Assembly (NCBI RefSeq): GCF_028368935.1
Contig: NZ_JAQNDK010000003.1
Coordinates: 620,001-684,000 of the forward strand
DNA length: 64,000 nt
Source: Sorangium aterium
GTDB taxonomy: Bacteria; Myxococcota_A; Polyangia; Polyangiales; Polyangiaceae
Reading direction: 5' to 3'
Of the stretch, positions 11,736 to 47,034 are shown in pieces. The translations under genes and the position numbers were made by a program. How positions within the stretch are numbered: the stretch's first letter is position 1; every line of letters begins with the position of its first letter. Below the pieces are notes generated by a model. It made no database searches, was not told where the DNA came from, and was given only the letters and a program-made list of their open reading frames with translations.

Positions 11736-11747
11736 CCTACATCGATT

Positions 11748-11751: not shown

Positions 11752-11760
11752 CGCGCGAAA

Positions 11761-18858: not shown

Positions 18859-18875
18859 CGCGAGGGAGCGGGCAA

Positions 18876-23537: not shown

Positions 23538-24625
23538 AATGTGAATGGGCGCTCCGCCGCGGTGACTCCCCGGAGCTGTTTCGCGTCCTTGGCACTCCCG
23601 ACGCGTCGAATGTCCCGCACGCGGACGTGGCGGACGACTCGCACGCGCTGATGATGTATCGGCAGATGGTCGCGCTCCGCGTGCTCGACGAGCGGGCGCT
23701 CGTGTACCACCGGCACGGTCGCATCGGCACCTGGGCGATCTCGTGGGGCCATGAGGCGATCCACGTGGGCGTCATGGCGGCCCTGCGCGACACCGACTGG
23801 GCTTTCCCGTCGTACCGCGAGAACAAGCTGTGCCTGCTCCGGGGCATGTCGCCCGAGGCGATCCTGGCGGGGTGCCGCGGTCAGCCCGAGGGGTTCTGGA
23901 ATCCCCACGAGTGGCGAGTTGGCTCGATTTGCATTCCGGTGGCCTCTCACGTCCCCCACGCGGCGGGGTTCGCTTGGGGCGAGAAGCTGCAAGGGCGCGA
24001 CACGGTCGCGGCGGTCTTCTTCGGCGACGGCGCCACGTCGGAGGGCGAGTTCCACGAAGGAGCCAATTTCGCCGCGGTGACGCGGGCCCCTGTCTTGCTC
24101 GTGTGCACGAACAATCAATGGGCGATCAGCACCCCCGTATCGCGCCAGACTCGGGCGATGTACCTGGCGGACAAGGCGGTGGGTTACGGCATTCCAAGCG
24201 TGCGCGTCGACGGAAACGACGTGCTCGCGGTCTACGAAGCCACCCGGCAGGGGGCCGAGCGGGCTCGCGACGGGGGGGGGCCCGTCTTCATCGAATGTGT
24301 GATCTATCGGGCGCAAGCCCACGCGTTTCCGGACGATCCAAGCGCGTACCGCGACGATGTGGAGGCTGAAAAGGCGCGGCGCGAGGAGTGCCTCGGGCAA
24401 ATGGAGGCATACCTTCGGGCGCGCGGGCTGCTCAGCGACGAGCAGGCGGCCCAGTACCGATCGGAAGCGCTGGCCTCGGTGGCCGCGGGCATCGTCAAGG
24501 CGGAGGCGCTCCCGACCGCCGACCCAGAGCTGATCTTTCAGCACGTCCTCGAAGAGCAAACTCCAGCCATGCGGAGCGACATGGAGCGACTCCGCGCCGT
24601 GCGCACCCGCTACGGATCACCGTGA
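23534..24625 (+). CDS. 2-oxo acid dehydrogenase E1 component, alpha subunit
   Basis: This 363-aa protein is a thiamine-diphosphate-dependent decarboxylase subunit of the branched-chain/pyruvate E1alpha family. The ThDP/Mg motif is clear: GDGATSEGEFHEG, ending in NNQWAIS about 30 residues later. The phosphorylation-loop region reads AHAFPDDPSAYR, so the first regulatory Ser seen in many homologues is absent. ATG 23534 overlaps the stop of the TE-containing PKS (ATGA), so translation is coupled to the PKS genes, and E1beta follows after 10 nt. The family decarboxylates a 2-oxo acid and transfers the acyl group to E2 lipoyl. The context, an E2 fused to an ACP, implies starter-unit supply rather than central metabolism. 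Phenylpyruvate is the proposed substrate by analogy with ripostatin; the sequence alone does not show it. Confidence 0.93.
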   Translation: MKCEWALRRGDSPELFRVLGTPDASNVPHADVADDSHALMMYRQMVALRVLDERALVYHRHGRIGTWAISWGHEAIHVGVMAALRDTDWAFPSYRENKLCLLRGMSPEAILAGCRGQPEGFWNPHEWRVGSICIPVASHVPHAAGFAWGEKLQGRDTVAAVFFGDGATSEGEFHEGANFAAVTRAPVLLVCTNNQWAISTPVSRQTRAMYLADKAVGYGIPSVRVDGNDVLAVYEATRQGAERARDGGGPVFIECVIYRAQAHAFPDDPSAYRDDVEAEKARREECLGQMEAYLRARGLLSDEQAAQYRSEALASVAAGIVKAEALPTADPELIFQHVLEEQTPAMRSDMERLRAVRTRYGSP

Positions 24626-24635
24626 GGATCGGTAG

Positions 24636-25613
24636 ATGACCCTACTCGCATTCGCTGACGCGATTAACCTTGCTCTTCGAGAAGAGCTACACAGAAATCC
24701 GCGCGCGATGCTGCTCGGCCAGGACATCGGGCGCAGCGGCGGTGTGTTCCGCGTGACCGCCGATCTGCAGCAGACCTTCGGCGCCGATCGCGTCGTGGAC
24801 GCGCCCATCTCCGAAGCGGGGATCGTGGGGATGGCCGTTGGATTGTGTCTCTCGGGCTGGCGGCCGGTCTGCGAGCTCCAGTTCGACGCTTTCAGCTATC
24901 CGGCGCTGAACCAGATCTTCACCCACGTGAGCAGGTACCGGTGGCGGACGCGGGGCGCCGCAGCGATGCCGATGGTGATCCGCATGCCGTGCGGCGGCGG
25001 CGTGAAGGCCCCCGAGCTGCACTCCGACTCGCCGGAGGCGTATTATTGCCACACACCCGGCCTTGTCGTTGTCATGCCCTCGACGCCCGCGGACGCGAAA
25101 GGGCTCCTGACCGCAGCGCTCCGCGCGCAGGACCCAGTGGTGTTTCTCGAGCCGAAGAAGCTCTATCGCCACGCGCGGGGCGAGGTGCCGGAGACGGAGC
25201 ACATCGTCCCGCTCGGGTCGGTGCGCACGGTGCGTGAGGGGAGCGACGTCACGCTGATCGCGTGGGGGGCGATGATCGACGTCGCCGTGCAGGCGGCGGA
25301 TGTCGTCCGCGAGGAGGGAGTCTCGGCGCACATTTGCGATGTGCGTACGCTCTCGCCGCTCGACAGAGCGGGCATCCTGGACGCGGTGAGGGCCAGCGGC
25401 CGCGTGGTGATCGTGCAGGAGTCGCCGAGGTCATGCAGCCTGGCCAGCGAGATCGCGGCGCTCGCGGCGGAAGAAGCCCTGTATGACCTGCGCGCGCCAG
25501 TGGTGCGCGTGAGCGGGTACGACGCTCCGTACCCTTATTACAGCGTCGAACACTATCACCGCCCTGACTGGGCGCGGGTCGTTGACGCCATCAAGCAAGT
25601 GCTCGCGGCGTAG
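24636..25613 (+). CDS. 2-oxo acid dehydrogenase E1 component, beta subunit
   Basis: This 325-aa transketolase-like subunit pairs with the upstream E1alpha to make a heterotetrameric E1. Visible family features are the N-terminal LGQDIG..GGVFRVT segment, the DAPISEAGIVGMAVG stretch holding the cofactor-activating Glu, the HSDSPEAYYCHTPGL segment and the C-terminal domain (DVRTLSPLD, VQESP). Length is normal for the family. It lies between E1alpha (10 nt upstream) and E2 (14 nt downstream). No dihydrolipoamide dehydrogenase (E3) is present in the window, so E2 lipoyl reoxidation probably uses a housekeeping E3 encoded elsewhere. Confidence 0.93.
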   Translation: MTLLAFADAINLALREELHRNPRAMLLGQDIGRSGGVFRVTADLQQTFGADRVVDAPISEAGIVGMAVGLCLSGWRPVCELQFDAFSYPALNQIFTHVSRYRWRTRGAAAMPMVIRMPCGGGVKAPELHSDSPEAYYCHTPGLVVVMPSTPADAKGLLTAALRAQDPVVFLEPKKLYRHARGEVPETEHIVPLGSVRTVREGSDVTLIAWGAMIDVAVQAADVVREEGVSAHICDVRTLSPLDRAGILDAVRASGRVVIVQESPRSCSLASEIAALAAEEALYDLRAPVVRVSGYDAPYPYYSVEHYHRPDWARVVDAIKQVLAA

Positions 25614-25627: not shown

Positions 25628-27340
25628 ATGGGTTTCGTTTACGTATTGCCGGATCTCGGGGAAGGAATCGCCGAAGCAGAGGTCGTGCGCTGGCACGTCG
25701 CCGAAGGCGACGACGTGAAGGAGGACGATCCCCTCGTCGAGGTGCTCACCGCCAAGGCGACGGTCGACGCGCCCTCACCGAGGACGGGCAAGGTGCTCAA
25801 GGTGGTCGCCCTGACAGGAGAAACCATCCAGGTGGGCGAGCCGCTGGCCGTCATCGGTGAGGCCGGCGAGGACGTCGAGGCCATCCTCCAGGCGAACGCC
25901 AAGGCGAGCTCGCGGCGGCCCGCGGGCGCGGCAATCCAGGTCCTGCCCAGCGTCCGCAAGTTGGCCGCGGAGCTCGGCGTCTCGCTCGAGGCCCTACAGC
26001 ACTCCGGCCCGATCACCGCGGATGTGGTGCGGGCCGCCGCGCGGGGAAATCTCGGCGCCTCTGTGCAGGGAAACCTCGGCGTCGGCGTCCGTGCGCGGCG
26101 GCGGCTCCAGGGCGTCGGCCGGGCGGCTGCGCAGAACCTGTCGCGCGCGCAGCTCGTCCCGACGGTGATGGTCGTCGAGGAGGCCCAGCTGGATGCGCTG
26201 TTCCGCCTCCAGCAGCTCCTTGATATCGGCTACGTGCCGTTCCTCGTGCAGGCGGCGATCGCGGCGTTCCGCGAGGTGCCCGAGGCGAACGCTCGATTCG
26301 ACGAAGCCAAACAGGAGCTCGTGATCTACGACCAGGTCGACATGGCTGTCGCCGTGCACCTGGACGAGGGGCTGGCGGTCCCCGTCATGAGCGACTGCGC
26401 GGGGCTCTCGCTCCGTGAGCTGGCGGAGAAGATCCGCGACCTCGGAGAGAGGGCGCACGCCAACGCGCTTTCGCCGAGCGAGAGCATGGGAGGCACATTC
26501 ACCGTCTCATGCCCGGGGGACGCGGGGGTGCTCCTCGCGGCGCCGCTGCTCAACGTGCCGCAGGTCGGGCTCCTGGCGCTGCACCGGCTGTCGCGGAGGC
26601 CGATCGTCGTCGATGGCCGATTGGCCGTGGGGTGGGCGGCGCACGTCACGTTCACGCACGATCACCGCGCGATCAACGGCATGACTGCCTGCCACTTCCT
26701 TCGGCGCGTGGTCGAGCTCTTGTCGAAGCCGCTCCAGGCGCTCGAGGCCGGGATCTTCCGGCCCGGCGATCTCCAATCTCAAGCGAGCCGAGCGCCGCGT
26801 CCGGGCGCGTCGGAGCCTTCTGGGGCGCTGGCCGCCGAGCTGGGCGGGCTGCCCGAGCCGCGCCGGCGCGACCACCTCGTCGCGGCGATCGAGGCGCGCC
26901 TCCGCAAGCAGCTCAATACCAACTGGACGTTTGATCGCTCCCGGACATGGTCGGATCTCGGCTTGAACTCGTACGGCGCGGTGTCCTTGCGCAGTTCGCT
27001 GAGCGACGCGTTGGGGTGCGAGCTGCCGCCGACGCTCTTGTACAGACACGCGACGCCCGTCGCTCTCGCCGAGCACCTCCTCGGATTGCTGCGCCGGCCG
27101 GCGGCTCCGGCGACGCTCACGCCGGTGCAGCTCCTCCAGCGGCTCCAGGGGATGCAGGAGCAGCAGGCTCACGCGCTCCTCGTGGAGCTGACCGAGGGGC
27201 GAGCTGCGCGGGACGCACAGCCGCGGCAGACGAAGGGCGAGGACCTGATCGGCGAGGCGGGGGGCGCGGCGGCGTCGGACGTGGAAATCGACGCGCAGCT
27301 CGATGACATCTTGGGCGCCGATTCTTCGGCGGGGGCATAG
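25628..27340 (+). CDS. E2 acyltransferase fused to an acyl carrier protein (starter-loading protein)
   Basis: A 570-aa fusion. Residues 1-80 are a lipoyl domain, with the lipoyl Lys probably Lys43 in VLTAKATV. Residues 105-140 resemble the E1/E3-binding peripheral domain (LPSVRKLAAELGV). Residues 155-380 are the E2 catalytic core, whose active-site motif reads HRAING instead of the common HxxxDG. After a linker, residues 405-480 form an ACP with Ser448 in LGLNSYGAV. The last 80 residues hold a helical stretch and an acidic tail suited to docking with the next PKS, which starts 3 nt downstream with a coiled coil. The inferred role is to take the acyl group from E1 on lipoyl and pass it to its own phosphopantetheine arm instead of CoA, so the starter reaches the PKS without a loading AT. 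Ripostatin loading works in a comparable way. Confidence 0.93.
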   Translation: MGFVYVLPDLGEGIAEAEVVRWHVAEGDDVKEDDPLVEVLTAKATVDAPSPRTGKVLKVVALTGETIQVGEPLAVIGEAGEDVEAILQANAKASSRRPAGAAIQVLPSVRKLAAELGVSLEALQHSGPITADVVRAAARGNLGASVQGNLGVGVRARRRLQGVGRAAAQNLSRAQLVPTVMVVEEAQLDALFRLQQLLDIGYVPFLVQAAIAAFREVPEANARFDEAKQELVIYDQVDMAVAVHLDEGLAVPVMSDCAGLSLRELAEKIRDLGERAHANALSPSESMGGTFTVSCPGDAGVLLAAPLLNVPQVGLLALHRLSRRPIVVDGRLAVGWAAHVTFTHDHRAINGMTACHFLRRVVELLSKPLQALEAGIFRPGDLQSQASRAPRPGASEPSGALAAELGGLPEPRRRDHLVAAIEARLRKQLNTNWTFDRSRTWSDLGLNSYGAVSLRSSLSDALGCELPPTLLYRHATPVALAEHLLGLLRRPAAPATLTPVQLLQRLQGMQEQQAHALLVELTEGRAARDAQPRQTKGEDLIGEAGGAAASDVEIDAQLDDILGADSSAGA

Positions 27341-27343
27341 GTC

Positions 27344-30300
27344 GTGAGCGACGAGCAGACAATCCGGCTGCGCCGCGCGATGGCGGCCGTCACGAAGCTC
27401 CAGGCGCGAATAGCGCAGCTGGAGGCAGGGGCGCACGGCGCCATCGCGATCGTCTCCATGGCCTGCCGGTTTCCCGGCGGCGTCGACAGTCCGGAGGGGT
27501 TCTGGCAGCTCCTGGATGACGGACGGGACGCCATCACCGAGATCCCGCGTTACCGGTGGGACGTCGACGCGGTCTATGACCCGAATCCGGCGACGGTCGG
27601 CACCACGTACTGCCGCGTGGGCGGCTTCGTCGGCGAAGTGGACCGGTTCGATCCTGGTTTCTTCGGGATCAGCCCGCGCGAGGCGCTGACGATCGATCCG
27701 CGCGAGAGGTTGCTCCTCGAGACAGCGTGGGAAGCGCTCGAGCGGGGAGGGATGACCGCCAAGCGGGTCGCCGGCTCCTCGACAGGCGTCTACGTCGGCA
27801 TTTTGACCCTGCCGGAGTACCAAATTGACGCTCTCCGTGACAGGGACCGGATTGACCCGTACACGCTCCTCGGCACCACCCACAGCGCGATGGCGGGCCG
27901 ACTCTCGTATTGGCTCGGCCTGCACGGCCCCAACATGCCAGTCGACACGGCATGCTCGTCCTCCCTCGTGGCCGTGCACCTGGCCGTGCAGGCGCTCCGG
28001 GCGGGGGAGTGCGATATGGCGCTGGCCGGAGGGGTGAGTCTCCTGCTCGCCCCGGAGGGCTACGTCTATTTCTCTCGCCTGACAGCCCTCTCCAAGACGG
28101 GGCGGTGCCATGCGTTCTCCGCCGACGCCGACGGCTACGTGCGGGGCGAAGGCTGCGGGATGGTGGTGCTGAAGCGCCTGGAGGACGCGCAGCGGGACGG
28201 TGATCCGATCCTCGCCGTGATCCGGAGCAGCGTCGTCAATCAAGACGGGACGTCAAACGGTTTCACCGCTCCCAGCGGCGTCGCTCAGGAGCAGATGCTG
28301 CGCCGGGCGCTGAAGCAGGCGCAGATCGAGCCGGCCACGATCGACGTCGTGGAGTGCCACGGGACGGGGACGATCCTGGGCGATCCGATCGAGGTCGACG
28401 CGCTGGCGAGCGTCTATGGAGAGGGGCGCTCGCCGGACCGCCCCCTGCTGCTCACGTCGGTGAAAACGAACATCGGACACACCGAAGGGGCCGCGGGCAT
28501 CGCGGGGATGATCAAAGCGGTGCTCGCGCTGCAGCATCGCCGCGTGCCGCCGTCGTTGCACTTCAACGACCGTCCGAACCCGAACATCGCTTGGGATCGC
28601 TCTCCGGTGAAGGTGGCGACCACCGCGATACCGTGGGAACAGAGGGAGCACCCGCGGCGCATCGGTGTGTCCTCGTTCGGGTTCTCGGGGACGAACGCGC
28701 ACATCATTCTGGAAGGGGCGCCTGAGGTCACGCCGAGCGCGGCGCCGCCGAAGCTGAGATTGCCACGGGTCCCGCTGGTGTTGTCGGGTCACACGGAGGA
28801 GGCGCTGCGGGGCAACGCGGAGCGCCTGGCGGCGTGGCTGGACGACCACGACAGCTCGCTCCTGGATATCGCGTATAGCCTCGCGGCGACGCGAACCGCC
28901 TTCCGGGAGCGCGTCGCGGTCTCGGTGGCGGACGCACCGTCGGCCAAGGAGGCGCTCCGCGCCTTGGCGCGAGGGGATCTGCCGTCCGACGCGATCCGCG
29001 CGACGGCGCGCCGAGACCGGGCCGTCTTCATCTTCCCCGGCCAAGGGAGCCAGTACCCGGGCATGTGCCGGACGTTGCTGGACGAGCCGGTGTTTCGTGA
29101 GGCGCTGGCCGCGTGCGACGCCGCGATACGTCGGCACGCAGGCTTCTCGGTGCTGGAGCTGCTGGAGCAAGACGACGATGCGCAGCGGAGCGCGCTGGAG
29201 AAGGTGGCCATCGTCCAACCGGTCTTGTTTGCCGTCGCCGTCGCGCTCGCGCGGTTGTGGCAGTCCTGCGGCGTAGAGCCGGCCGCCGTCGTCGGGCACA
29301 GCCAGGGAGAGGTCGCCGCGGCCGTCGTGGCCGGCGCGCTGTCGCTGGAGGAGGGCGCGCGCGTCGTCAGCGTTCGGAGCCGCCTCTTGAGCCGGCTGGA
29401 CGGCAGCGGGGCGATGGTCAGCGTTGGCCTCCCGATGAAGGAGGTGGAAGCCCTCCTGGCCACACACGAAGGGCTGTCGGTGGCCGTCGTGAATACGAGC
29501 GAGTCGACCGTCGTCGCGGGCGATCGTTCCCGGTTGGAGGCGCTGCTGGTCGAGCTGGAGCGTCGAAGCGTCTTCTGCCGCCGCATCGCGGTGGACTATG
29601 CGTCGCACTCGCCGCAGATGGACCCGATCCTGGGAGCTATCCGCGAGGGGCTCGCCGATCTCGCGCCCCGCGAGGCGAGCACGCCGTTCTACTCGACGGT
29701 GCTCGGCAAGCAGGCGATCGGCACCGAGCTGGGTGGCGGATACTGGGCGGACAACCTGCGTATGCCCGTGCGGATGGACCTGGCGCTCGAAGCGCTCGGG
29801 CAGCGCGACGCCGCCGTGCTCCTGGAGGTGAGCGCTCATCCTCTCCTCGCCGCCCCGCTCGGGCTTGCGGGGCACGAGGCCGTTGTCGGTTCGCTCCACC
29901 GCGACGCGGACGCCGCCTCGCGCTTTCGAACGGCCGCCGCACAGCTCCATGTGCACGGCGTCGAGGTCGATTGGGAGAAGGTCTACGCGGCTGCGGGCGC
30001 GAGGCGGACGGCCGTGCCGACCTATGCGTTCCAGCGCGACCGCTACTGGTTGGAGAAGCCGAAGGAGCGACGGCCGCAGCGCGGAGGGCACCCGCTGCTC
30101 GGGGAGCGCATCGAGCTCTCGACGCCGAAGAAGATCGCGGTATGGGAGAGCGCCATCGGTCTCGAGGCGTTGCCGTACCTCAAGGATCATCGGGTCGAAG
30201 ACGCGATCATCTTCCCAGGCGCGGGCTTTGTGGAGATGGCCCTCGCGGCGGCGAAAGAGCTCTTCGGTGGAAGAGCTCACGTGGTGGAGGATCTCTCGCT

Positions 30301-32863
30301 CGACGTCGCGCTCGTTCTCCTGGAGGAGGCGAAGGTCGTTCAGCTCGCCTGCGTGGAAGACGAACCGGGGTCGATGGGCTTTCAGATCTCGAGCTGGGAG
30401 GACGCGAGCTCGTCGTGGGTGCGGCACGCGCGGGGGAAACTGCGGCTCGGCGAGCCGGAGAAGGTCGCACCGGAGCCGCCTCGCGAGGTGCGCGCGCGCT
30501 GCCGCACGGCCGTGAGCGGCGGCGAGTACTACGGCGCGCTCTCGGAGCGAGGCCTCGTTTACGGGCCGTCGTTTCAACGGATCGCACGCCTCTGGGTCGG
30601 AGAGAAGGAGGCGCTCGGCGAGATGCAGCTCGCGGGCGACGGGACCTCGGGGGCGAGGCGCTACATCGTCCCTCCCGACTTCCTCGACGGCTGCTTTCAG
30701 GTGTTGATGGCCGCGTCGGGGTCGTCGACGGCGGGGCCGATGGTCCCGGTAGGCGTGAAGTCCGTGCGGGTTCGGGGGCCGCTCGAGGGCAACGTATGGA
30801 GCCACGTTTGGCTCCGAGAGATCGACGAGGCGAAGGGCAGCTTCACGGGCGACGTGTCTCTGCTGGACGAGTCCGGAGGCGTGCTGGTCGACGTGCAGGG
30901 GCTGCGCGTCCAGCGGCTCGAGCGCGGCGCGGTCGCGGGTGAGGAGATCCGCCGCCTTGAGCACCGCTTTCATCCGGCGCCGTTGCCGGAGCGCGAGCGC
31001 ACGGCCTCGGGCAGGTCGGGCCGGGTCGTGATCCTCGCGGACGAGGGCGGCGTCGGGGATGCTCTCGCGAACGCGCTGCGGGCGGAGGGGGTATCGGCCA
31101 CGTCCGTACGCGCTTCGGAGATCCCCCTGGAGGGCTCACGGGTCTTCGAGGATCTGTTCGGCTCCTCGCCGTGTCGAGACATCGTGCACCTCTGGAGCCT
31201 CGACGGCCCGCCGCCCGATGAGATCACCGTCGCCTCGCTGGCGCGCGTCGGGCAGCGCGACTGCGGAGCCCTGCTCCACGCCGTACAGGCGCTCTCGCGC
31301 CTCTCCTTGCGAGACGCGCCGCGGCTCTGGATCGTCACGCGCGGCGTGCACCAGGTTGGGGCGCCATCGACCCCGAGCTCGCCCGGCCCCGCGCTGCTGT
31401 GGGGGCTCGGTCGAACGATCGCGGCCGAGCACCCGGAGCTCTCCTGCACGCGGCTCGATCTGGCGCCGCGACCGCTCCCGGACGAGGTGAACGAGCTCGC
31501 GAGACATCTGCTCGCCGACGATCGCGAGGACGAGATCGCGCTTCGTCAAGAGGGCCGCTTCGTCGCGCGCGTGGGGCCCGCGGCGAAGCTTCGGTCCGCG
31601 GGGACGTCGTTTGGCCCGACGAGAATCGCCCAGGGCGCGACGTACCTCGTCGTCGGTGGGCTCGGCGGCCTCGGATTGTCGCTGGCCGCGTGGTTGGTGT
31701 CCGAGGGGGCGCGCAACCTGGTGCTGACGAGTCGGCGCGGAGCGCACACCACGGAGCAGATCGAGGCTGTCGCGCGAATGACGGCCTCCGGGGCCCAGGT
31801 GGTCGTCGAGGCGGCGGACGTCTCGGTGCGCTCCGACGTCGAGCGCGTGCTGGAGCGAATCGCGAAGGAGCTGCCGCCGCTGCGCGGCGTCGTGCACGCG
31901 GCCGGCGTGCTCGACGACTCCCTCCTGGAGCGGCAGACGGCCGAGCGACTGGCGAAGGTGACCGCGCCCAAGGTGGCTGGCGCGTGGCACCTGCACGAGC
32001 TCACGCGCGATCAACCGCTCGATTTCTTCGTCCTCTACGCCTCGGCGTCGGGGCTCCTCGGCGCCGCGGGACAGGCCAATTACGCCGCGGCCAACGCATT
32101 CCTCGACGCGTTGGCTCATCATCGGCGCGCCCTCGGCCTCCCCGCGTTGAGCCTCGACTGGGGAGCGTTCTCCGAGGTCGGTTTGGCGGCGGCGCAGGAC
32201 AACCGAGGCGCGCGGCTGGCGACCATGGGAATGCGAAGTATGACGCCCGAGGAGGGCATCGCCGTCCTCGCCGAGGAGCTGGGCGGCGACCGCGTGCAGC
32301 TCGGCGTCATACCGCTCGACTTGCGGCAGTGGGTCGAGTGCCATCCGCACGTCGCCGCCTCGTCCCTGTTCTCCGAGCTGGTCCAAGCGGCCGGCCAGCT
32401 CCGGGGATTGAGCAAGACGGCCAAGTCGATGCAGCAGGCGCTGAGCAAGGCGTCCGCTTCGGAGCGCCGCGCGCTGGTCGAGCGCTTCCTTCGAGAACAG
32501 GTGGGGACTGTCCTCCGGATGGATGCGTCCAGGGTCGACCCGACGGCGCCTTTCCGGGGCATGGGGCTCGATTCCCTCATGGGATTGGAGCTGCGCAATC
32601 GGCTCGAGACCGGTCTCGGTCTGAAGCTCGCGGCCACGTTGATCTGGACATACTCCAACGTGACCGCTCTGGCGGAGCACCTCTCTGGTCGGCTCGCGGC
32701 GGAGACGAGCGGGGACCCACGCGTCGAGACGAACGTTCCGGTCGACGTGCTCGTACACCCGGCGGCTCCGATGAGCGTCGCGCCCATCTTGAGCCTCTCG
32801 CACGAGGAGAAGAACGCCCTCCTCGAAAAAACGCTGTCGGCGATCGAGGAATATCTCAAATGA
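27344..32863 (+). CDS. Cis-AT PKS module, KS-AT-DH-KR-ACP (first extension module)
   Basis: This 1839-aa protein is the only PKS in the window with an intact built-in AT. It opens with a short coiled coil (1-30, [20 protein letters not shown]) typical of an N-terminal docking helix. Domains: KS (33-460, Cys204), AT (560-870, GHSQGE Ser653; YASH at 752-755, the methylmalonyl signature), DH (920-1200; His949 and the Asp of FLDGCFQ present, although the motif Gly is Asp in [10 protein letters not shown]), KR (Rossmann from 1432, Tyr1580; LDD motif in HAAGVLDDS, usually B-type) and ACP (Ser1744). It should convert the starter into an alpha-methyl enoyl thioester. The E2-ACP gene immediately upstream makes it the likely acceptor of the starter. 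The last codons overlap the next PKS (ATGA), and the C-terminal [20 protein letters not shown] looks like a docking helix. Confidence 0.95.
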
Positions 32864-35800
32864 CCCAGGGCACAGGGACTGGACTCTCGCAGCTCGATCG
32901 AGCGCAGATCGCGCTCATGAAGGCGCAGCATGGGCTGGAGATGCTCGACCGGATCCGGTCGGAGCCGATCGCCATCGTGGGCATGGCCTGCCGGTATCCA
33001 GGAGGGGTCAACACGCTCTCTTCATACTGGGATCTCCTGAGCCGGCGCGTCGACGCGATCAGCGAGACGCGCGCGCGCTGGCCCGACGCGGCGGCGGGCG
33101 CGGCGCCGGAGGTCCGCTGGGCGGGACTCCTCGATTCGGTCGACGCCTTCGACGCGGAGCTCTTCCACATCGCGCCGCGCGAGGCCGTGAAGCTCGACCC
33201 GCAGCAGCGCCTGCTCCTCGAGCTGACCTGGGAAGCGCTCGAGGATGCGGGCTACGCCCCGGACGGGCTCGTCGGTGCGCCCGCGGGAGTCTTCGTCGGC
33301 ATTTCGAGCGCCGACTACGCCCAGCTCCTCACCGCCGCGCCGCCGGCCGACGTGGACGCTTACAACGGGACGGGCAACTCCAGCAGCTTCGCAGCCGGGC
33401 GCGTGTCGTATGTCTTCGGCTTCCAAGGACCGTCGGTGGCGATCGACACCGTCTGCTCGTCGTCGCTCGTCGCCACGCACCTGGCCTGTCAGAGCTTGCG
33501 AACGCAAGAGTGCGATCTGGCGCTGGCGGCCGGCGTGAACCTCATTCTCTCGCCGCGTTCGATGGACATTCTGGTGCCGCTGAAGGCGCTCTCTCCCGAC
33601 GGGCGCTGCAAGACCTTCGACGCGCGCGCGAATGGCTTCGTCCGCGGTGAGGGGTGCGGCGTGCTCGTGCTCAAGCGCCTATCGGACGCGCTGCGGGATG
33701 GAGATTGCATCTGGGGTTTGATTCGAGGGTCGGCCGTCAACCAAGACGGCAGCTCGACCGCGCTCACTGCGCCGAACATGCTCGCGCAGCAGCAGCTGCT
33801 CAGGCGTGCGCTCGCCCAGGCGAAGCTGTCTCCGTCCGACATCGGCTACATCGAGGCACATGGCACCGGCACGTCGCTCGGCGACCCCATCGAGGTCGAG
33901 GCCCTCAGCAGCGTGTTCGGCGCCGCCCGCGCGGATGGCTCGAGCTGCGCGCTCGGCTCGGTGAAGACGAACATCGGACACCTCGAGGCGGCCGCCGGAG
34001 TCGCCGGGTTGATGAAGAGCGTCCTCGCGCTTCATCACGAGTGTATCCCCGCCCATTTGCACCTGCGCGCGCTCAATCCGCGGATGTCGCTCGAGGGGAC
34101 CCCCTTCGTGATTCCGACGAGCGAGCTCGCCTGGCCGCGCGGCGCGAAGCCGCGTCGGGCGGGCGTGAGCTCGTTCGGCATGAGCGGGACCAACGCTCAC
34201 GTCGTGCTTGAGGAGGCACCTTCGCGGCCGGCGTCGGCGAAGCCGGAGGTCGAGCGGCCGGTCCACGTGATCCCGGTGAGCGCGAACACCGCCGAGGCGC
34301 TCCGCGCGCTGGCCGGAAAGTACGCGCAAAAGCTGGCCGAGACCGAGGACCGGCTGGAAGACATCGCGCACACCGCCGGCGCTGGGCGGAGCCGTCTCCC
34401 GGAGCGACTGGCGGTGGTCGCCCGGACGAAGCAGCAAGCCCAGGAGAGGCTCGAGGCGTTCGCGCGAGGAGAGACGGCGGCCGAGTGCGCGCGCGGTCGG
34501 GCCGACCGGTCCAAGCCGGCCAAGATCGGTTTTTTCTTCGCCGATGGCGGTGCGCATTACGCGGGAATGGGCCGTTCGCTCTACGAAACAGAGCCCGTGT
34601 TCCGGCAGGCGCTCGATCGCTGCGACGCGGAGATGAAGCGGATCGCGGGCCGGAGCCTGCTCGGGGTGATGCTCGGCGGAGGCGCGAGCGGCGGCGCGCT
34701 CGACGGAGCCGAGGATACGCTGCCGGCGCTCTTCGCGCTTCAGTTCGCGCTCTGCGAGCTGTGGCGGTCGTGGGGCGCCATGCCTGACGCGGTCATGGGC
34801 CACGGCGCTGGCGAGTACGCGGCGGCGTGCGCGGCGGACGTGCTCACGATGGAAGAGGGATTGCAGCTCATCATCGAGCGGAGCCGGTCGTCGCAGGCGG
34901 AGCCGACCTCGGGGCCTTCCGACAAGGCGGCGCAGGCGACGTTCAAGGCGCCGTCGATCCTCTTCATACCTCACGAGGCCGGGCTCATGGCGAGGCTGGA
35001 GCCGGCGCGGGCAGAGTCCTGGCGCCGCGCCGTGGGAGAGGCCATCGCCGCCGAGCGAGGCGTGGAGGTGCTGCGCGCCAAGGGGATCGACGTGTTTCTG
35101 GAGGTCGGGCCGCATCCAGCGCGGTTCGGCGAGTCGGCGGCGCGGGTCGAGGACGCAGCGGAGTGCGCGTGGCTGCCGTCGCTGTGCCAGGGGCGAGGCG
35201 AGTGGGAGACGATGCTGAGCAGCCTGGGCGAGCTGTTTGTGCGTGGCGCGGGCGTCGATTGGAAACGATTCGACGCGCCGTATGCCCGCCGGCGCGTGCG
35301 GTTGCCGACCTATACATTTCAGAGGACGCGCTACTGGTTCGAAAGCAAGTCGAGGCCGCAAAACCGCCGCGGCCAGGAAACGGGGCACGAGCTGCTCGGC
35401 GAGCAGGTGGCTCTGGGCGGAGAAGGCGCGTTGTTCGAAAACCGGCTCAGCCCGCGTGACGATCACTACCTCGCCGACCATCGCGTGCTCGGCAAGGTGG
35501 TGGTCCCCGCGGCTGGTCTCCTGGAGATGATGTCGGCCGCCGGGGCGAAGGTCACGGGAGCCAAGGTGCGGGTCGATGACCTGCTCGTCCTTGCGCCGCT
35601 TGTGCTGGATGATCAGGCGGGGCGAGACGCGCAGGTGGTCGTCGCGGAGCCGGTCGAGGGCCGGCGAAGCGTGAAGATCTACAGCAGGAAGGCGAGCGGC
35701 GACGGCGCGTGGACGCTGCACGTCTCGGGCGTGCTCTCGGAGCTCGGCGGCGCAGGCGCCGCGCCGGTGGACCTCGCCGGGTTGCGGGCGCGGTGCGCCG

Positions 35801-38800
35801 AACCGCAGGACGTGGACGCGGCGTACGCGGCGTTCGAGCGGCAGGGGCTGGGGCTCGGCGAGTCGTTTCGTGGGATGGAAGCGCTGTGGGCCGCGCCCGG
35901 CGAGATGCTCGCGCGCGTGCGGCTACCGACGCGGTGCGCGAAGCAGGCGCCGGAGTACGGAATCCATCCGGTTCTCCTCGACACCGCGCTGCAGGTGCTG
36001 GCGTCGATCGTGATGCGGGGAGCCGCCGAGGATCGGCTGTATCTGCCGTTCGGGGCGGCGGGGTACGCGCAGCGGACCGACGCGGCGGAGCGCGGCTGGG
36101 TGCACGCGCGCTTGACGAGCGACCCGCGCCGCGAGGTCGTGACGGGAGATGTGCAGATCCTCGACGACGAGGGGAGAGTGGTGGCCGAGGTCGCCGGGCT
36201 CCAGTGCAAGGAAGCGCCGTCACACGCCCTGCAACGGGCGTCCGGGAGCATAACGGAGCAGGCGATTTACAGGCTTGAATGGGTGGAGTCTGCGCCGCAG
36301 GTGGAGGTCCCGCCGGTGCGGGGCCGGTGGTTGATCCTGGCGGATCACGAAGAGCCCGCGGAGCCGCTCGTGCGTGAGCTGTGCGCGAGGGGAGGGGAGG
36401 GTCGATTCGCGACCTGGCCGGAGGCGAAGCGCGAGCTCGAGGCGGGAGGCGCGTTCGAAGGGGTCGTACGGATTTGGGAGCGCGCGAACGGGGAAGGCTC
36501 TCCGGCGGATCGCGCCGAGAGCCGCGCCGTGGGCGCTTTGGAGCTGACGCAAGCGCTGGTGCGAAGCGGGCGCGTGAAGCGGCTCCTGTGCGTCACGCAG
36601 GGCGCGCAACCGGTGGCGCCGGGGGACGCCGTGGACATGGCGTCGTCGGCGCTGTGGGGATTGGGGCGCGCGGTCTTTCAGGAGCATCCAGAGCTGTCGT
36701 GCCGCCTGATCGATGTGGACGAGCTCGCCGGAGGGCTGTGGCGCGAGGTCGTGAGCGGCGACGCGGAGAACCAGGTGGCGCTGCGCAGCGGCAAGCGCTG
36801 GGTCGCTCGGCTGGTGAAGGCGCCGCGCGAGCCCGACACATTTTCGCCGGAGACGCCCAATTGCCGGCTGGAGAGCTCGAAGCGAGGTTTGCTCGAGAGT
36901 CTGCGATGGGCACCGACCTCGAGGCGAGCGCCGGGCCCGGGTGAAGTGGAGATCGAAGTCCGAGCCGCCGGGCTCAACTTCCGCGACGTGCTCAATGCGC
37001 TTGGAATGTACCCGGGCGACGCGGGCCTCCTGGGCGGCGACTGCGCGGGCGTGGTGGCGGCTGTGGGCGAGGGCGTGCAGCACGTCGCCGTGGGGGACGC
37101 GGTGATGGGCTTGGTCCCGGGTTCTTTCGGCCGCTACGTCACGGTGGACGCGCGCCAGGTGATCCGGCGCCCGCCCGAGTGGACGTGGGAGCAGGCGGCG
37201 TCGATACCCACCGTGTTCTTGACCGCGTGGTACGCGCTCCGCGAGCTCGCGGACCTGAGAGCGGGCGAGCGTATCCTCGTGCACGCGGCTGCGGGAGGGG
37301 TGGGGATGGCGGCCATGCAGCTCGCGCGGTGGATGGGAGCGGAGGTCCTGGCGACCGCGAGCGCGTCGAAGCACGAGGTGCTGCGGGCGATGGGCGTCGA
37401 GACGATCGCGGACTCCCGGTCGCTGGATTACGCCGAAGCGTGGAGCCGGACGAAGCGGCCCGGCGGCGTCGACGTGGTGCTGAACGCGCTCGCCGGTGAT
37501 CATGTGGACAAAAGCCTCTCGTTGCTCTCACCGGGCGGGCGTTTCCTGGAAATGGGCAAGACCGACGTGCGGAGCGTGTCGGACGTTGCGTCGAAGCATC
37601 CGGGTGTGCTGTACCGCGCGTTCGATCTGCTCGAGGCCGGGCCGGCGCGGATCCAGGAGATGTTGACCCAGATCCTGGCCGGGTTCGCCGGCGGTCGGCT
37701 GCGTCCGCTCCCCGTGACGAGCTTCGAAATGAGGCAGGCGCAGGCGGCCTTTCGCTTCATGGCGCAGGCCCGCCACGTGGGAAAGATCGTGCTTCGGGCG
37801 CCCGGCCTGGAGACAAAGCGGCCCGACGCGACGGCGCTGATCACCGGCGGACTGGGCGGGCTCGGGCTGCTCGTGGCGCGCTGGTTGATTGAGAAACAGG
37901 GGATCGCGCATCTCGTCTTGGTGGGGCGCAAGGCTCCCTCACCCGCGCAGCTCGCCAAGGTCGAAGAGCTGCGTGCGCTGGGCGCGCGCGTGACGGTGGC
38001 GCAGGCGGACGTCGCGGACCGCGCGCAGGTCGAAACGCTGATGTCGTCGCTCGGACGGGAGTCGCTGCGGGGCGTAATCCACGCAGCGGGTGTCCTTGAA
38101 GACGGGATCTTGATGCAGCAAAACAGACGACGCTTCGCGCAGGTCTTCACGCCGAAGGCGCAGGGCGCGTGGAATCTGCATGAAGCGACGCGGGGCCTCC
38201 CGCTCGATTTCTTCGTGCTGTTCTCGTCCGCGGCGGCGATGCTCGGCTCCGCCGGGCAGAGCAATTACGCCGCGGCCAACAGCTTTCTGGACGGCCTCGC
38301 ACACCACCGCCGAACCCAAGGACTGTGCGGTCTCAGCTTGAACTGGGGGGCCTGGCTCGGGGCGGGGATGGCGGCGTCGCTCGGCCAGCCGGATCGCGTG
38401 CGTTTGGCGCGTCTCGGCGTCGGGTCACATACCCCGGCGGAGGGCCTCGCCTTGCTGGAGGACGCATGGCTTCGAAGCGACCCCCAGCTCGGCCTCTTCA
38501 AGCTGGATCTGCCCGTGTCGGCGCAAGCCGCCGCGGCCGACGAGGTGCCGCCGTTGTGGCGCTCGCTGATCGTCCAGACCGGGGCGCCGCCGCGCCGCGC
38601 GGCACCTTCCTCTTCGGCATCGTCGCCGATCGCGCGATTGGCTTCGCTCTCACCCGCCGAGCAAAGGTCGGAGATCGAGTCCACGCTGCGCCAGGAGGTG
38701 GCCAAGGTTCTGTCGTTGCCCACGTCGAGCGCGGTGCCGCTCGCGACCCCGCTGAAAGAGCTCGGTCTGGATTCGCTCATGGCGGTCGAGCTGCGCAACA

Positions 38801-40275
38801 TGCTCACGGCTCACATCGGCCAGACCTTGCCGGTGACCCTCGCGTTCGACTTTCCGACGGTCAAGCAGATGACTGACTACCTGCTGACAGAGCACCTCGC
38901 GAAGCCGAGCGAGCACCCGGCGCCCGTCGACGCGCCGGCTGCCCTCGCCAAGATCCCCGCGCGCCGCGGCATCCCGGTGGGATCGGACGAGCCCATCGCC
39001 ATCGTCGGCATGGCGTGCCGGTTCCCCGGCAGCGACAATCCGCGAGCGTTCTGGGAAGCGCTGATCGCCGGCCGCGACTGCACGTCGGAGATCCCGAGCT
39101 CGCGTTGGGATGTTGCCCGTTACTACGACGCTCGACCGGGGACGCCCGGAAAGATGATTTCCCGGCGCGGCGGTTTTCTTTCCAAGGTCACCGGGTTCGA
39201 CGCGGACTTCTTCGGGATCGCGGGGATCGAAGCCGAGGCGATGGACCCTCAGCAACGCTTTCTCTTGACCGTCGCATGGGAGGCCATGGAGTCCGCGCGC
39301 CTGTCGCCGCGGCGCCTGGCCGGCAGCAAAACGGGCGTCTTCGCCGGCCTCTGCAATTTCGATTACGCGCGCCTCCTGTTCACGCACGCGCTCTCCGTCA
39401 GCCCGTACGCGGGAACCGGTGGATCTCTCGCCATTGCCGCCAACCGACTCTCGTACTTCTTCGATCTGCGCGGCCCGAGCCTGACGGTCGATACGGCGTG
39501 CTCCTCGTCGCTCGTGGCGGCCCACCTCGCGTGTCAAAGCTTGCGCACGGGGGAGTCGGATCTCGCGCTCGTGGGGGGCGCCAACCTCATCCTCGCGCCG
39601 GAGGTCAGCATCGCCCTCTCGCAGGCCGGAATGCTGGCGCCGGACGGGCGCTGCAAGGCCTTTGATGCTGCGGCGGACGGGTTCGCGCGTGGCGAGGGCT
39701 GCGCGGTGGTGGTGCTCAAACGTCTGTCGGACGCGCTCCGCGACCATGACCGCATCGTCGCCACGTTGGTCGGCTCGGCCGTAAACCAGGACGGGCGCAG
39801 CAACGGTTTGACCGCGCCGAACGGCCCGGCGCAGCAGGCGGTGGTCGAGCAGGCGCTCGAGGACGCCGGCGTGACACCTTCGGACGTCGGATTCGTGGAG
39901 GCGCACGGCAGCGGCACGCCGCTCGGAGATCCCATCGAGTTCAACGCGCTGCGGAAGGTCCTCGACCGACGTCGAACCCCGGATTCCCGGTGCTGGATCG
40001 GATCGGTGAAGACGAACATCGGGCACCTCGAGGGCGCGGCCGGGATCGCGGGGTTGATGAAGGCGGCGCTGGCGGTCCACCACGGCACGATCCCGCCGCA
40101 TCTCCACGTGCGGACGCTCAACCCGCACCTCGATTCGGCCGACGGGCGGTTCGCTGTTCCCACGGCGTGTGAGCCGTGGCCGGCGTCAGGGGCGCGGCGG
40201 ATCGCGGGCGTCAGCTCGTTCGGATTCGGCGGCACCAACGCGCACGTCCTCGTCGCCCAGCACGGTAACCCCTAG
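32860..40275 (+). CDS. Hybrid PKS, KS-inactive AT-DH-ER-KR-ACP-KS
   Basis: Start ATG 32860 overlaps the previous stop; the same frame is open upstream but that part is only an overlap with the preceding gene. The protein has 2471 aa. Domains: KS (37-465, DTVCSS with Cys199), AT remnant (550-790), DH (845-1110, [10 protein letters not shown] His874, [10 protein letters not shown] Asp1041), ER (1345-1650, LNFRDVL and [10 protein letters not shown]), KR (from 1655, Tyr1803), ACP (Ser1972), second KS (2043-2468, Cys2214). The AT has Gly649 where the nucleophilic Ser should be (GHGAGE). Compared with the AT of the previous protein, about 75 residues are missing between the active site and LEVGPHP, including the YASH/HAFH region. 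The module must therefore be charged in trans. It should yield a fully saturated two-carbon extension. The trailing KS starts a module whose other domains must lie on another protein, presumably encoded left of the window. Confidence 0.95.
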
Positions 40276-40295: not shown

Positions 40296-41042
40296 GTGGA
40301 GCCCATCGTTTTGCTCGAATTTCGCTCCGATCACATCGCGCATTTGATGCTGTGCGATCGTGCAAGCAAGAACATGTTCTCGCGCGCCCTCATCGAAGAG
40401 TTGACGAATAAGCTGGCCGAGGTCGCCCGGCATCCGGAGGTGCGCTGCGTCGTCGTGTCGGGACTGGAACGGCATTTCTGCTGCGGCGGCAGCCGGAGCG
40501 AGCTGCTCGAGCTCATCGAGGGCAACTACACCTTCGCCGTCGGTCATTTCTATCGGGCGCTGCTCGATTGCCCGATCCCGACGATCGCCGCGATGGCGGG
40601 CCATGCCCTCGGTGGCGGGTTGGTCTTCGGCTTGTACGCGGACATCGTGATCTTGGCCGAGGAGTCGATCTACAGCGCCAACTTCATGCGCTACGGCTTC
40701 ACGCCCGGCGTCGGAGCGACGTGCCTTCTTCCGCACCGGCTCGGGCCCGCGCTCGCGCACGAGATGCTCCTGACGGCCAACGGCTTCCACGGGGAGGAGC
40801 TGCGACGCCGCGGTGTGCCCTTCCAGGTCGTCAAGCGCGACCGCGTGCTGCAGCAGGCCCTGACCATCGCCGCGGATCTCGCTTCAAAGCCCGTCACGTC
40901 GCTCAAGCTTCTGAAGGCGACGATGACGCAAGCGCTTCGCGACGAGCTCCCTCGCGCCGTGAGCCGCGAGCTCGAGATGCATGAGATCACGTTCAAATTG
41001 CCCGAGGTCCGCGCTCGGGTAGAGCTCGAATTCGGATACTGA
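40296..41042 (+). CDS. Enoyl-CoA hydratase/isomerase-like protein, probable ECH2 (decarboxylase) of beta-branching cassette
   Basis: A 248-aa crotonase-fold protein starting at GTG 40296 behind a strong GGAGGGAG. The oxyanion-hole regions are visible (GLERHFCCGG and AGHALGGGLVFGLYADIVI), and the stretch YGFTPGVGATCLLP is characteristic of the PksI/MupK branch. In beta-branching, that branch decarboxylates the glutaconyl intermediate on the acceptor ACP after HCS and ECH1 have acted. It lies 20 nt after the PKS and 12 nt before a second crotonase. The PksI-type assignment comes from recognised motifs without an alignment, so the ECH1/ECH2 order could be reversed. Confidence 0.87.
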   Translation: MEPIVLLEFRSDHIAHLMLCDRASKNMFSRALIEELTNKLAEVARHPEVRCVVVSGLERHFCCGGSRSELLELIEGNYTFAVGHFYRALLDCPIPTIAAMAGHALGGGLVFGLYADIVILAEESIYSANFMRYGFTPGVGATCLLPHRLGPALAHEMLLTANGFHGEELRRRGVPFQVVKRDRVLQQALTIAADLASKPVTSLKLLKATMTQALRDELPRAVSRELEMHEITFKLPEVRARVELEFGY

Positions 41043-41046
41043 GGAG
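41041..41046 (+). promoter_or_regulatory. Ribosome binding site that decides the start of the second crotonase gene
   Basis: GAGGAG overlaps the preceding stop codon and sits 8 nt before GTG 41055. An in-frame GTG at 41046 lies inside this sequence, so it is unlikely to be the start. Confidence 0.6.
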
Positions 41047-41054
41047 TGAATGCC

Positions 41055-41843
41055 GTGACGTTCGAGACCCTGCACTATGAAAACAGCGGCGGCGCCGCGC
41101 GGATCACGCTGCATCGCCCGGAGCACAGGAACGCCATCAACCGTGCTCTGCTCCGGGAGTTGAACGCGGCGCTCGACCTGGCCGAGGCCGCTCCTGACTG
41201 CCGCATGGTGGTGCTCCAGGCCGACGGGGAGATCTTCTGCTCTGGTATGGACTTCGACGAGATGGCCAAGCTCGCCGATCAGGTAGACCTTCGGACGATG
41301 CACGAGAGGACCGAAGAGTACATGCTCACGCTCAAGCGGCTGGCGACCTCCCGTCGCGTCGTCGTCTCGCGCGTCGGGGGCGCGGTCACGGCGGGCGGCG
41401 TCGGCTTTGTCGCCGCGAGCGATCTCGTGCTCGCGACTCCCAAGGTCACCTTCACGTTGACCGAGGCCCTCTGGGGGCTGCTTCCGTCCAACGTCGTCCC
41501 GTACCTGGTTCGCCGCGTCGGGTTTCAGGCCGCGTTTCGCATGACGCTCACCGCCGCGTCCATCTCTGCTGAGGAGGCTCACCGGCTGCAGCTCGTCGAT
41601 TACCTCGGCCCTGATCTGGACGAGCTCGAGAGGGTCATTCGCATACGGCTGAACCGAATCACTCCCGACACGGTGAGCGAGCTCAAGGGGTTTTTTCGGA
41701 AGATGTGGATCATCGACACGGCGATGGAGCAGGCCGCTGTTGAAGAGACGGCGCGGCTCGGTGCTTCGGCGACCGTGAAGGAGAACATCCGCAATTTCGT
41801 CGAGGCTCGCACGTTTCCATGGGAACGCCGCTCCGGCCGATGA
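41055..41843 (+). CDS. Enoyl-CoA hydratase-like protein, probable ECH1 (dehydratase) of beta-branching cassette
   Basis: This 262-aa crotonase-superfamily protein starts at GTG 41055, chosen by RBS spacing. Oxyanion-hole segments are visible at GEIFCSGMDFDEM and GGAVTAGGVGFVAASDLV, followed by TEALWGLLPSNVVPYLVRRVGFQ, which resembles the PksH/MupJ branch. That branch dehydrates the HMG-like intermediate formed by an HMG-CoA synthase homologue on the growing polyketide. Together with the preceding crotonase, the donor-type ACP and the KS(Ser) downstream it makes up four of the five usual beta-branching functions; the HCS is absent from the window. Confidence 0.87.
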   Translation: MTFETLHYENSGGAARITLHRPEHRNAINRALLRELNAALDLAEAAPDCRMVVLQADGEIFCSGMDFDEMAKLADQVDLRTMHERTEEYMLTLKRLATSRRVVVSRVGGAVTAGGVGFVAASDLVLATPKVTFTLTEALWGLLPSNVVPYLVRRVGFQAAFRMTLTAASISAEEAHRLQLVDYLGPDLDELERVIRIRLNRITPDTVSELKGFFRKMWIIDTAMEQAAVEETARLGASATVKENIRNFVEARTFPWERRSGR

Positions 41844-41868: not shown

Positions 41869-42708
41869 ATGAAGGCCTATATTTTTGCGGGTCAAGGATC
41901 GCAGTCGCGTGGGATGGGCCGCGAGCTCTTCGCGGAGTTCCCGGAGTACGTCGCCCGCGCCAACGACATCCTTGGCTACTCGATCGAAGAGCTCTGCCTG
42001 AGCGACGGGGACGGCAGGCTTGACAACACCGAGTACACGCAGCCCGCGATCTATGTCGTGAACGCCCTCTCCTACATGAAGAAGGTTCGCGACGGATCGG
42101 GTCCCGCTGATTATTGCGCGGGGCACTCGCTGGGCGAATACAACGCGCTCCTCGCGGCTGGCGCATTCAGCTTCGAGGACGGGCTGCGCCTGGTCAAGAA
42201 GCGCGGCGCGCTCATGGGCGCGTCAAAAGGCGGTGGAATGGCCGCGGTGGTCGGGTTCGGAGAGAATGACATCCGCGAGCTGTTCATCAAGAACGACATT
42301 GTGAACATCGATGTGGCCAACTTCAATTCGCCCTCGCAGTTCGCGATCGCCGGGCCGAAGACGGAGATCGAGGCGGCGAAGAAGGTGTTCGAGGAGGCCG
42401 GGGCCGTGTACCACATCCTGCGGGTCGGGGGCGCATTCCACTCCCGTTACATGCAGGAGGCGAAGACGGAGTTCGGGAGGCTCGTCGAGACGTTTCAGTT
42501 CGCGAGGCTGAAGATCCCCGTGGTGTCGAACCTTCGCGCTCTCCCGTACGCGAACGGCCGAATCGCCGCGGGGCTGACGCAGCAGATCACGGGGGTCGTT
42601 CGGTGGAGCGAGAGCGTCCGGTACATGGCGTTGCGCGGCGTGACGGAGTGGGTCGAAGTGGCTGCTCGGCCGGTGTTGACGCCGCTCTTGAAGCGAATCT
42701 TGAAGTGA
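41869..42708 (+). CDS. Trans-acting malonyl-CoA:ACP acyltransferase
   Basis: A 279-aa stand-alone acyltransferase. It shows the N-terminal FAGQGSQ loop, the nucleophile motif GHSLGEY, the Arg of the VKKRGALM segment that binds the malonyl carboxylate, and GAFHS, the His-containing motif of malonyl-specific enzymes. It should charge with malonate the ACPs of all modules lacking a working AT, that is every PKS here except the cis-AT module. GAGG about 8 nt before ATG 41869 supports the start. A 114-nt gap separates it from the related hydrolase gene; nothing clear was seen in that gap. Confidence 0.93.
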   Translation: MKAYIFAGQGSQSRGMGRELFAEFPEYVARANDILGYSIEELCLSDGDGRLDNTEYTQPAIYVVNALSYMKKVRDGSGPADYCAGHSLGEYNALLAAGAFSFEDGLRLVKKRGALMGASKGGGMAAVVGFGENDIRELFIKNDIVNIDVANFNSPSQFAIAGPKTEIEAAKKVFEEAGAVYHILRVGGAFHSRYMQEAKTEFGRLVETFQFARLKIPVVSNLRALPYANGRIAAGLTQQITGVVRWSESVRYMALRGVTEWVEVAARPVLTPLLKRILK

Positions 42709-42822: not shown

Positions 42823-43842
42823 ATGGACGCCCGAGGCAGACCCGTCGTCTTCATGTTCGGCGGACAAGGCTCGCAGCACTATCACATGGGGCGCGAGCTC
42901 TTCGACGCGGACTCGACGTTTCGGACGTGGCTCCTCCGCGGCGATGAGCTGTTCCGGCGCGTGAAGGGCCGTTCGCTCATCGAGGTCATGTTCGATCGGT
43001 CGAGGAGCAGGGCCGACCCGTTCGACCGTATTTCGGAGACGCACCCGGCCATCGTCCTCGTGGAGTTCGCGCTCGCCCAGGCGCTCCTCGTGCGGGGTGT
43101 CGAGCCCGACGTGCTCATCGGTTACAGCCTGGGCGAGTTCGCGGCGGCCGCGGTCTCGGGCGTGGCGCCGTTCGAGGACGTGTTCATGGCGGTTCTCCGG
43201 CAAGCCGAGCTCGTGGTCGAGTGCTGCTCGGAAGCCGGAATGACGGCCGTCATCGGCGACGTGCGCCTGTTTCGAGACGAGCCCCGGCTCTTCGCCGGAT
43301 GCGAGCTCGTTTCGGTGAATTTCGAGCGACACTTCGTCGTCGCGGGGTCGCTCGCCGCCCTTGCTCAGGTCGAGGCAGAGCTGCGGGGGCGGAACGTCCT
43401 CCAGGTCCGCTTGCCGGTGCGGTACGGGTTTCACTCGCGGTGGCTCGATCCGCTGGCGCGTGTCAGCCCAGCGCTGCAGCTCTCGTCCCCGCCAGCGCCG
43501 CCCCGGGTCGCCTTGATATCCTGCGCCACCACCGGCCCGGTGTCGCACTTCGATCACCGGCATATCTGGCAGGTGATTCGGACGCCGGTGCGCTTCGCCG
43601 ATACGATAGAGAAGCTCGAGCACCCGGAACGTTACGTGTACGTCGATCTGAGCCCGTCTGGGACCTTGGCCACCTTCGTCAAGAACATCCTGCCGGGCCA
43701 CGCGGAGGCGACTGTGGTGCCGATCATGACGCCGTTCGGCGGCGCTCGGGAGATGCTCAGCGAAGCGATCGCGCGTATCGACGCGGCGGTGCACGGCGGG
43801 ACGTCGCGCGCGCGGCCGGACGGGATTGGAGCCCGCGCCTGA
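42823..43842 (+). CDS. Acyltransferase-fold acyl hydrolase (proofreading type)
   Basis: This 339-aa protein starts at ATG 42823 behind GGAGAG (8-nt spacing); a TTG 30 nt further upstream is in frame but unsupported. The fold is that of malonyl transferases (FMFGGQGSQ, GYSLGEF, YGFHS). However, the Arg that binds the malonyl carboxylate in the neighbouring transferase is Gln here (VLRQAEL against VKKRGAL in a manual alignment). Loss of this Arg is the hallmark of PedC-like acyl hydrolases, which clear stalled acyl chains from ACPs in trans-AT systems. The nucleophile motif is also GYS instead of GHS. The stop overlaps the next start by one base (TGATG), so it is coupled to the enoyl reductase gene. 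Confidence 0.88.
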   Translation: MDARGRPVVFMFGGQGSQHYHMGRELFDADSTFRTWLLRGDELFRRVKGRSLIEVMFDRSRSRADPFDRISETHPAIVLVEFALAQALLVRGVEPDVLIGYSLGEFAAAAVSGVAPFEDVFMAVLRQAELVVECCSEAGMTAVIGDVRLFRDEPRLFAGCELVSVNFERHFVVAGSLAALAQVEAELRGRNVLQVRLPVRYGFHSRWLDPLARVSPALQLSSPPAPPRVALISCATTGPVSHFDHRHIWQVIRTPVRFADTIEKLEHPERYVYVDLSPSGTLATFVKNILPGHAEATVVPIMTPFGGAREMLSEAIARIDAAVHGGTSRARPDGIGARA

Positions 43843-46788: not shown

Positions 46789-47034
46789 ATGACGCGTGAT
46801 GAAGTGTTGTCGATCGTGCGTGAAAACATCGTGATGGTCCTTCCGGAGGTGGATGCGGCCTTGCTGCGCCCGGAGAGGAGTCTCTCGGAGCTCGGGGCCA
46901 ACTCCGTCGATCGCGCGGAGATCGTCGTGGGGGCCATGGCGGCGCTGCGGATCAAGGTGCCGGGCAGCGAGCTCGCCGAGGCGAAGAACATCGGCGGGCT
47001 CGTCGACGTCCTGTATCGCAAGCTCAGCGCTTGA
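46789..47034 (+). CDS. Free-standing acyl carrier protein, donor type for beta-branching
   Basis: An 81-aa discrete ACP. The phosphopantetheine site lies in LGANSVDRAEI. The GANSxDR signature is typical of AcpK/MacpC-like donor ACPs that carry malonyl, then acetyl, to an HMG-CoA synthase homologue. A strong AGGAGGAGG sits 7 nt before ATG 46789. It is followed after 31 nt by the KS(Ser) gene, its expected partner: the KS decarboxylates malonyl on this ACP to acetyl. Confidence 0.93.
   Translation: MTRDEVLSIVRENIVMVLPEVDAALLRPERSLSELGANSVDRAEIVVGAMAALRIKVPGSELAEAKNIGGLVDVLYRKLSA

Follow-up and report, generated by a model that had tools for sequence, protein, structure and literature searches.

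The question raised by this locus is which product is begun by the PKS genes at positions 25628-40275 of the window (the whole stretch of Sorangium aterium DNA that was analysed, 64,000 nucleotides in length). Domains, motifs and gene order can be read directly from the DNA (Table 1), and the stretch very probably encodes the opening steps of the assembly line of ripostatin, an already known antibiotic described as an inhibitor of bacterial RNA polymerase that targets the switch region. More specifically, we are highly confident that it carries the starter-loading genes and extension modules 1 and 2 of the ripostatin PKS in S. aterium WIWO2. The system is not new: a likely ripostatin cluster has previously been reported from this strain. 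The finding in this respect repeats published knowledge, while an additional sequenced ripostatin cluster helps to reveal which features are required.

Table 1. Features of the cluster, with positions in the window (negative numbers lie to the left of it)
Feature	Positions	Strand	Basis
HMGS, left of the window	-2362 to -1127 (G000:C3:617638-618870)		
PKS A, window part (gene start -978): KR with Phe for the catalytic Tyr, inferred split module 3	3-1871	+	Pfam, six-KR comparison, codon
PKS B: ACP, KS4-KR-ACP, KS5-KR-ACP, KS6	1875-11735	+	Pfam, motifs
PKS C: tandem ACPs without Trp flag, KS7-DH-KR-ACP, KS8	11722-18858	+	Pfam, motifs
PKS D: DH-like-ACP, KS9-ACP-TE	18855-23537	+	Pfam
E1α of a 2-oxoacid dehydrogenase-like complex (presumed phenylpyruvate substrate)	23534-24625	+	PF00676 E=1.1e-81; Thr66 at human Phe85
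E1β of the same complex	24636-25613	+	PF02779, PF02780; PDB 1um9_B E=6.2e-97
Lipoyl-E2-ACP fusion, presumed starter loading onto its own ACP	25628-27340	+	PF00364, PF00198, PF00550; ACP motif GLNS
PKS E, module 1: KS-AT-DH-KR-ACP	27344-32863	+	Pfam, motifs
PKS E domains	KS ~27443-28714; AT 29024-29965 (methylmalonyl type); DH 30089-30934; KR 31637-32173; ACP 32486-32683	+	Pfam
PKS F, module 2 and trailing KS: KS-AT0-DH-ER-KR-ACP-KS	32860-40275	+	Pfam
PKS F domains	KS ~32962-34215; AT0 ~34531-35349; DH 35386-36234; ER 36934-37794; KR 37828-38355; ACP 38683-38883	+	Pfam
KS of inferred module 3, C-terminal in PKS F	38989-40110	+	Pfam
Enoyl-CoA hydratase family protein, presumed β-branching ECH	40296-41042	+	PF00378
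Second enoyl-CoA hydratase family protein, presumed β-branching ECH	41046-41843	+	PF00378
Discrete acyltransferase, likely trans AT for module 2 and the AT-less modules	41869-42708	+	PF00698; GHSLGE, AFHS
Further discrete protein of the acyltransferase family, an AT or an acyl hydrolase (start inferred)	42823-43842	+	PF00698
PfaD-type trans enoyl reductase (start inferred)	43842-45191	+	TIGR02814, 633 bits vs cut-off 449
MFS transporter, likely export	45246-46718	+	PF07690
Discrete ACP, presumed β-branching cassette	46789-47034	+	PF00550
Discrete KS, presumed β-branching cassette, outside the nine modular KSs (start inferred)	47066-48331	+	NF005490, 445.6 bits vs cut-off 445; Pfam KS domains

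Starter system and E2-ACP fusion

The genes of a PDH-like complex are present as adjacent E1α, E1β and lipoyl-E2-ACP genes. The last of these encodes a protein of 570 residues, in which Pfam places Biotin_lipoyl at 7-76, 2-oxoacid_dh at 157-372 and PP-binding at 436-484, with the Ser codon of the carrier domain at 26969-26971. The nearest solved relatives of E1α are BCKDH and PDH E1α, and the top NCBIfam models for E1α and E1β are PDH models, both below cut-off; sequence alone points to a 2-oxoacid dehydrogenase and does not name the starter acid. In ripostatin biosynthesis, as set out in a passage of PMC5490192, a PDH-like complex decarboxylates phenylpyruvate and the product is kept as phenylacetyl-S-carrier protein, with free phenylacetaldehyde being avoided. 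The E1-E2-ACP gene set of S. aterium matches this route in its predicted activity: E1α and E1β would carry out a ThDP-dependent decarboxylation of phenylpyruvate and transfer the phenylacetyl group to the E2 lipoyl arm, and E2 would then pass it to its own fused ACP in place of CoA. PMC4425429 was considered as a precedent for PDH-like polyketide starter loading and set aside, the phrase in the relevant excerpt referring to the two-carbon sugar branch of paulomycin/avilamycin.

Canonical PDH and BCKDH complexes have the E1α, E1β and lipoyl-E2 families in common with this cluster, whereas the E2 here bears an ACP, its HRxxDG motif reads HRAING, E1α has Thr at the position of human Phe85, and Pfam reports no E3 family in the cluster genes scanned, unlike the canonical complexes with E1, E2 and E3. 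The motif change lies in the acyltransferase domain (PF00198, E=4e-53) and replaces the Asp of HxxxDG/HRxxDG with Asn; Asp is retained by 17 of the 18 relatives compared, and Asn occurs in none of them. It was weighed as a striking change and given little weight because Azotobacter E2p naturally has Asn at the same position. The residue in E1α is Thr66, which aligns with human Phe85, a residue that we take to line the substrate pocket. All 29 other E1αs, obtained from 30 loci (fewer than the matches listed), have Phe at this position, and a wider set of 37 contains Phe in 33, Leu in three and Thr in one (L011), this set being without the loci and flanks of the window itself (L001, L016-L018, L030), further E2 loci of the same genome (L005-L008), the HMGS loci (L060, L061) and alignments of less than 200 residues. 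The replacement of the usual Phe by Thr66 suggests a changed E1α pocket.

In the samples searched, E2s fused to a PKS carrier protein seemed to be rare. The S. aterium genome itself (13,472,481 bases, 7 contigs) gave one full-length match to the E2-ACP query, the other 15 rows being partial. At 1e-60, S. aterium was the single match in 108 family genomes, and among 377 genomes sampled from the phylum, which overlap with the family set, 17 including its own matched at 1e-45, the other 16 stopping at or before residue 415 of the 570 in the query; both searches scored only the best candidates per genome. Similarly, none of the 252 plasmid records found at 1e-30 covered 80% of the query, and the first among the matches listed covers 74%. 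A scan of named species genomes with short exact peptide patterns, which may miss relatives and may omit records near the genome of the window, gave seven loci with the E2 or lipoyl part only (27-49% identity in the best segment). With these limits, weaker E2-ACP fusions could be missed. As a starter device, the E2-ACP may be useful for aryl starters.

Modules 1 and 2 and the predicted side chain

The original prediction had drawn the borders of this stretch at 25628 and 40275, which are exact ORF ends, and had read it as E2-ACP, KS-AT-DH-KR-ACP and KS-AT0-DH-ER-KR-ACP. Pfam returns the same order, together with the C-terminal KS of PKS F as an extra domain that had gone unmentioned. Module 1 consists of ketoacyl-synt, Acyl_transf_1, PKS_DH_N/PS-DH, KR and PP-binding, with GLDS among its motifs, and the ER of module 2 is represented by ADH_N and ADH_zinc_N. 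Domain E-values across E2-ACP, PKS E and PKS F range from 4e-10 (ACP of E2-ACP) to 1.4e-185, which is far beyond chance, and the motifs checked in these proteins are intact save in the second AT.

Both earlier calls on the AT domains agree with the comparisons made here. The first AT, which had been taken as a YASH-containing domain for methylmalonyl, reads GHSQG and YASH and is best matched by the DEBS ATs (5.5e-84 to the best DEBS chain vs 4.2e-49 to CurL), which accept methylmalonyl. The second, which had been called AT0, has GHGAG in place of GHSxG with the loss of the catalytic Ser, and the alignment with CurL is interrupted, one CurL segment being omitted. As this AT0 is dead, malonyl for module 2 must come from elsewhere. 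In addition, no methyltransferase domain was found by Pfam in PKSs B-F or in the window part of PKS A, and the α-methyl group is therefore best explained by methylmalonyl.

In module 1, methylmalonate would be added through the cis AT and the product reduced and dehydrated to PhCH2-CH=C(CH3)-CO-S, and in module 2, malonate brought by the discrete AT would be added and fully reduced to give 4-methyl-6-phenylhex-4-enoyl-S-ACP. Collinear domain logic leads to the same 4-methyl-6-phenylhex-4-enoyl chain that had been proposed from a phenylacetyl starter, conditional on that starter, and this chain had been likened to the aryl-methylpentenyl side chain of ripostatin. Module 1 resembles DEBS-type cis-AT modules in having its own AT, nearest to those of DEBS, but no other module of the line has a working AT. 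PKSs A-D contain no AT motif, the AT of PKS F is dead and a discrete AT lies at 41869, as expected of a trans-AT PKS, a pattern from which module 1 departs with its own AT. KS1-3 are 50-54% identical to one another and KS4-6 53-57%, with 41-49% between KS1-3 and KS4-9, and the GC content is 0.70 in E2-ACP, PKS E and PKS F vs 0.68 in PKSs A-D; these values may indicate that the first modules arose separately, from a cis-AT source.

Order of the line and assignment to ripostatin

The modular KSs are nine in number (one in PKS E, two in F, three in B, two in C and one in D), and no KS is present in PKS A. Since PKS A is without a KS and PKS F ends in one, a hand-over from F to A appears natural; the trailing KS of PKS F would pass the chain to PKS A, and PKSs B-D would then complete a 14-membered lactone. 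Nine modular KSs predict a C20 chain beyond the phenyl ring, and the KR of the presumed module 4, which retains its Tyr, would make the OH that closes the lactone. In PMC8246989 the macrolactone of ripostatin B is described as 14-membered and as containing a doubly skipped triene, and the architecture found here, with this KS count and module 4 KR, fits such a ring when the proteins are placed in the order proposed. From the domains we infer the substrates, the protein order, the stereochemistry and the product of the assembly line.

The ripostatin biosynthetic gene cluster is reportedly that of Fu et al. 2017, MIBiG BGC0001761. As told by citing papers, it contains a PDH-like starter system giving phenylacetyl-S-carrier, for which matching genes are present here. 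Similarly, its tandem ACPs are without the Trp flag (PMC7618002, relevant passage), as are those of PKS C, whose Ser codons begin at 11863 and 12244 and which have V and I six residues further on. The terminal carboxymethyl branch and TE of ripostatin (PMC12560621, relevant passage) likewise have counterparts in the HMGS/ECH β-branching genes, with HMGS outside the window and two ECHs within it, and in the TE that terminates PKS D by Pfam. In the traits given by the citing papers, no difference between the two clusters is seen. The describers of S. aterium WIWO2 list a likely ripostatin A/B/C cluster, and ripostatin-family clusters are named in six Sorangium strains in an excerpt of PMC12800573. 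The assignment is built on the likely WIWO2 cluster in print, the PDH-like phenylacetyl route, the traits told by citing papers (tandem ACPs, β-branching genes and TE), and the ring size and KS count, all of which support the earlier view that the window belongs to ripostatin or a close relative.

A macrolide that resembles ripostatin but begins from a different acyl unit (isobutyryl, isovaleryl, acetyl or a non-phenylacetyl aryl group), made with a branched-chain or pyruvate E1, would accord with BCKDH and PDH as the best solved relatives of E1α and E1β and with the sub-threshold PDH models, but it is very unlikely in view of Thr66 at a position that is almost always Phe in the 37 relatives, which suggests a changed pocket, of the WIWO2 cluster being in print as likely ripostatin, and of the PDH-like phenylacetyl route described for that compound. 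Slightly more improbable is the use of malonyl by module 1 with a methyl group from SAM or β-branching, as in many trans-AT lines; the discrete AT and the absence of a working AT from the other modules would suit it, whereas the intact AT1 with its better match to DEBS than to CurL and the lack of a Pfam methyltransferase in PKSs B-F and the window part of PKS A speak for methylmalonyl. Most improbable of these is a line read in gene order, with A-B-C-D first and modules 1 and 2 not following E2-ACP. The genes for PKSs A-D do lie upstream and in the same direction, yet PKS A needs a KS in trans and PKS F ends in a lone KS, PKS D ends in a TE, and E2-ACP immediately precedes PKS E. Phenylacetyl loading by E2-ACP, followed by PKS E and PKS F of the ripostatin line, is the reading preferred here.

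Module 3 ketoreductase, module 8 and neighbouring genes

The Tyr of the KR motif YxxxN is kept in five of six KRs and is replaced by Phe in the KR of PKS A (codon ttc, 1572-1574), which is assigned to module 3 and would act on C15. Ripostatin A is the 15-ketone and ripostatin B the 15-alcohol. A reference-list title names 15-deoxyripostatin A. Without its catalytic Tyr, this KR would leave a C15 ketone; a dead module 3 KR fits ripostatin A, and ripostatin B would consequently need another reductase. Taken together, the proposal that the Phe-to-Thr change in E1α opens the pocket to phenylpyruvate and that the Tyr-to-Phe change in the module 3 KR accounts for the C15 ketone of ripostatin A, with B needing a separate reduction, is tentative, and we give it somewhat less than even weight. 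Neither for the pocket Phe nor for the ripostatin ketoreductase was a publication on point found in the open-access library searched, which does not prove absence in print, and the two residue-level ideas constitute the remaining interest of the cluster.

Module 8, formed by the KS8 that ends PKS C and the DH-like domain and ACP that open PKS D (17389-20080), contains no KR by Pfam. Its DH-like domain is degenerate and without both usual motifs, and KS8, which reads DAACASA, diverges furthest among the KSs (39-42%). Given the double-bond positions of the skipped triene in ripostatin, ketone reduction seems to be needed at module 8, so that the module 7 KR or a further enzyme may supply it in trans. 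The domains of module 8 do not fully account for the skipped triene, a point that counts against the ripostatin reading.

HMGS, whose gene starts 2.4 kb before the left edge of the window, comes first and is followed by the start of PKS A, so that the cluster is truncated by the window on this side. The GC content of HMGS is 0.595, below that of the PKS genes. A second HMGS-like gene lies on another contig of the genome (G000:C1:3299444-3300508) and is 36% identical to the HMGS of the cluster, a point on the side against the assignment to ripostatin. Beside the cluster, positions 48433-52476 encode an RHS-repeat protein with a C-terminal YwqJ-deaminase match just above cut-off, which from its sequence looks like an RHS-type polymorphic toxin.
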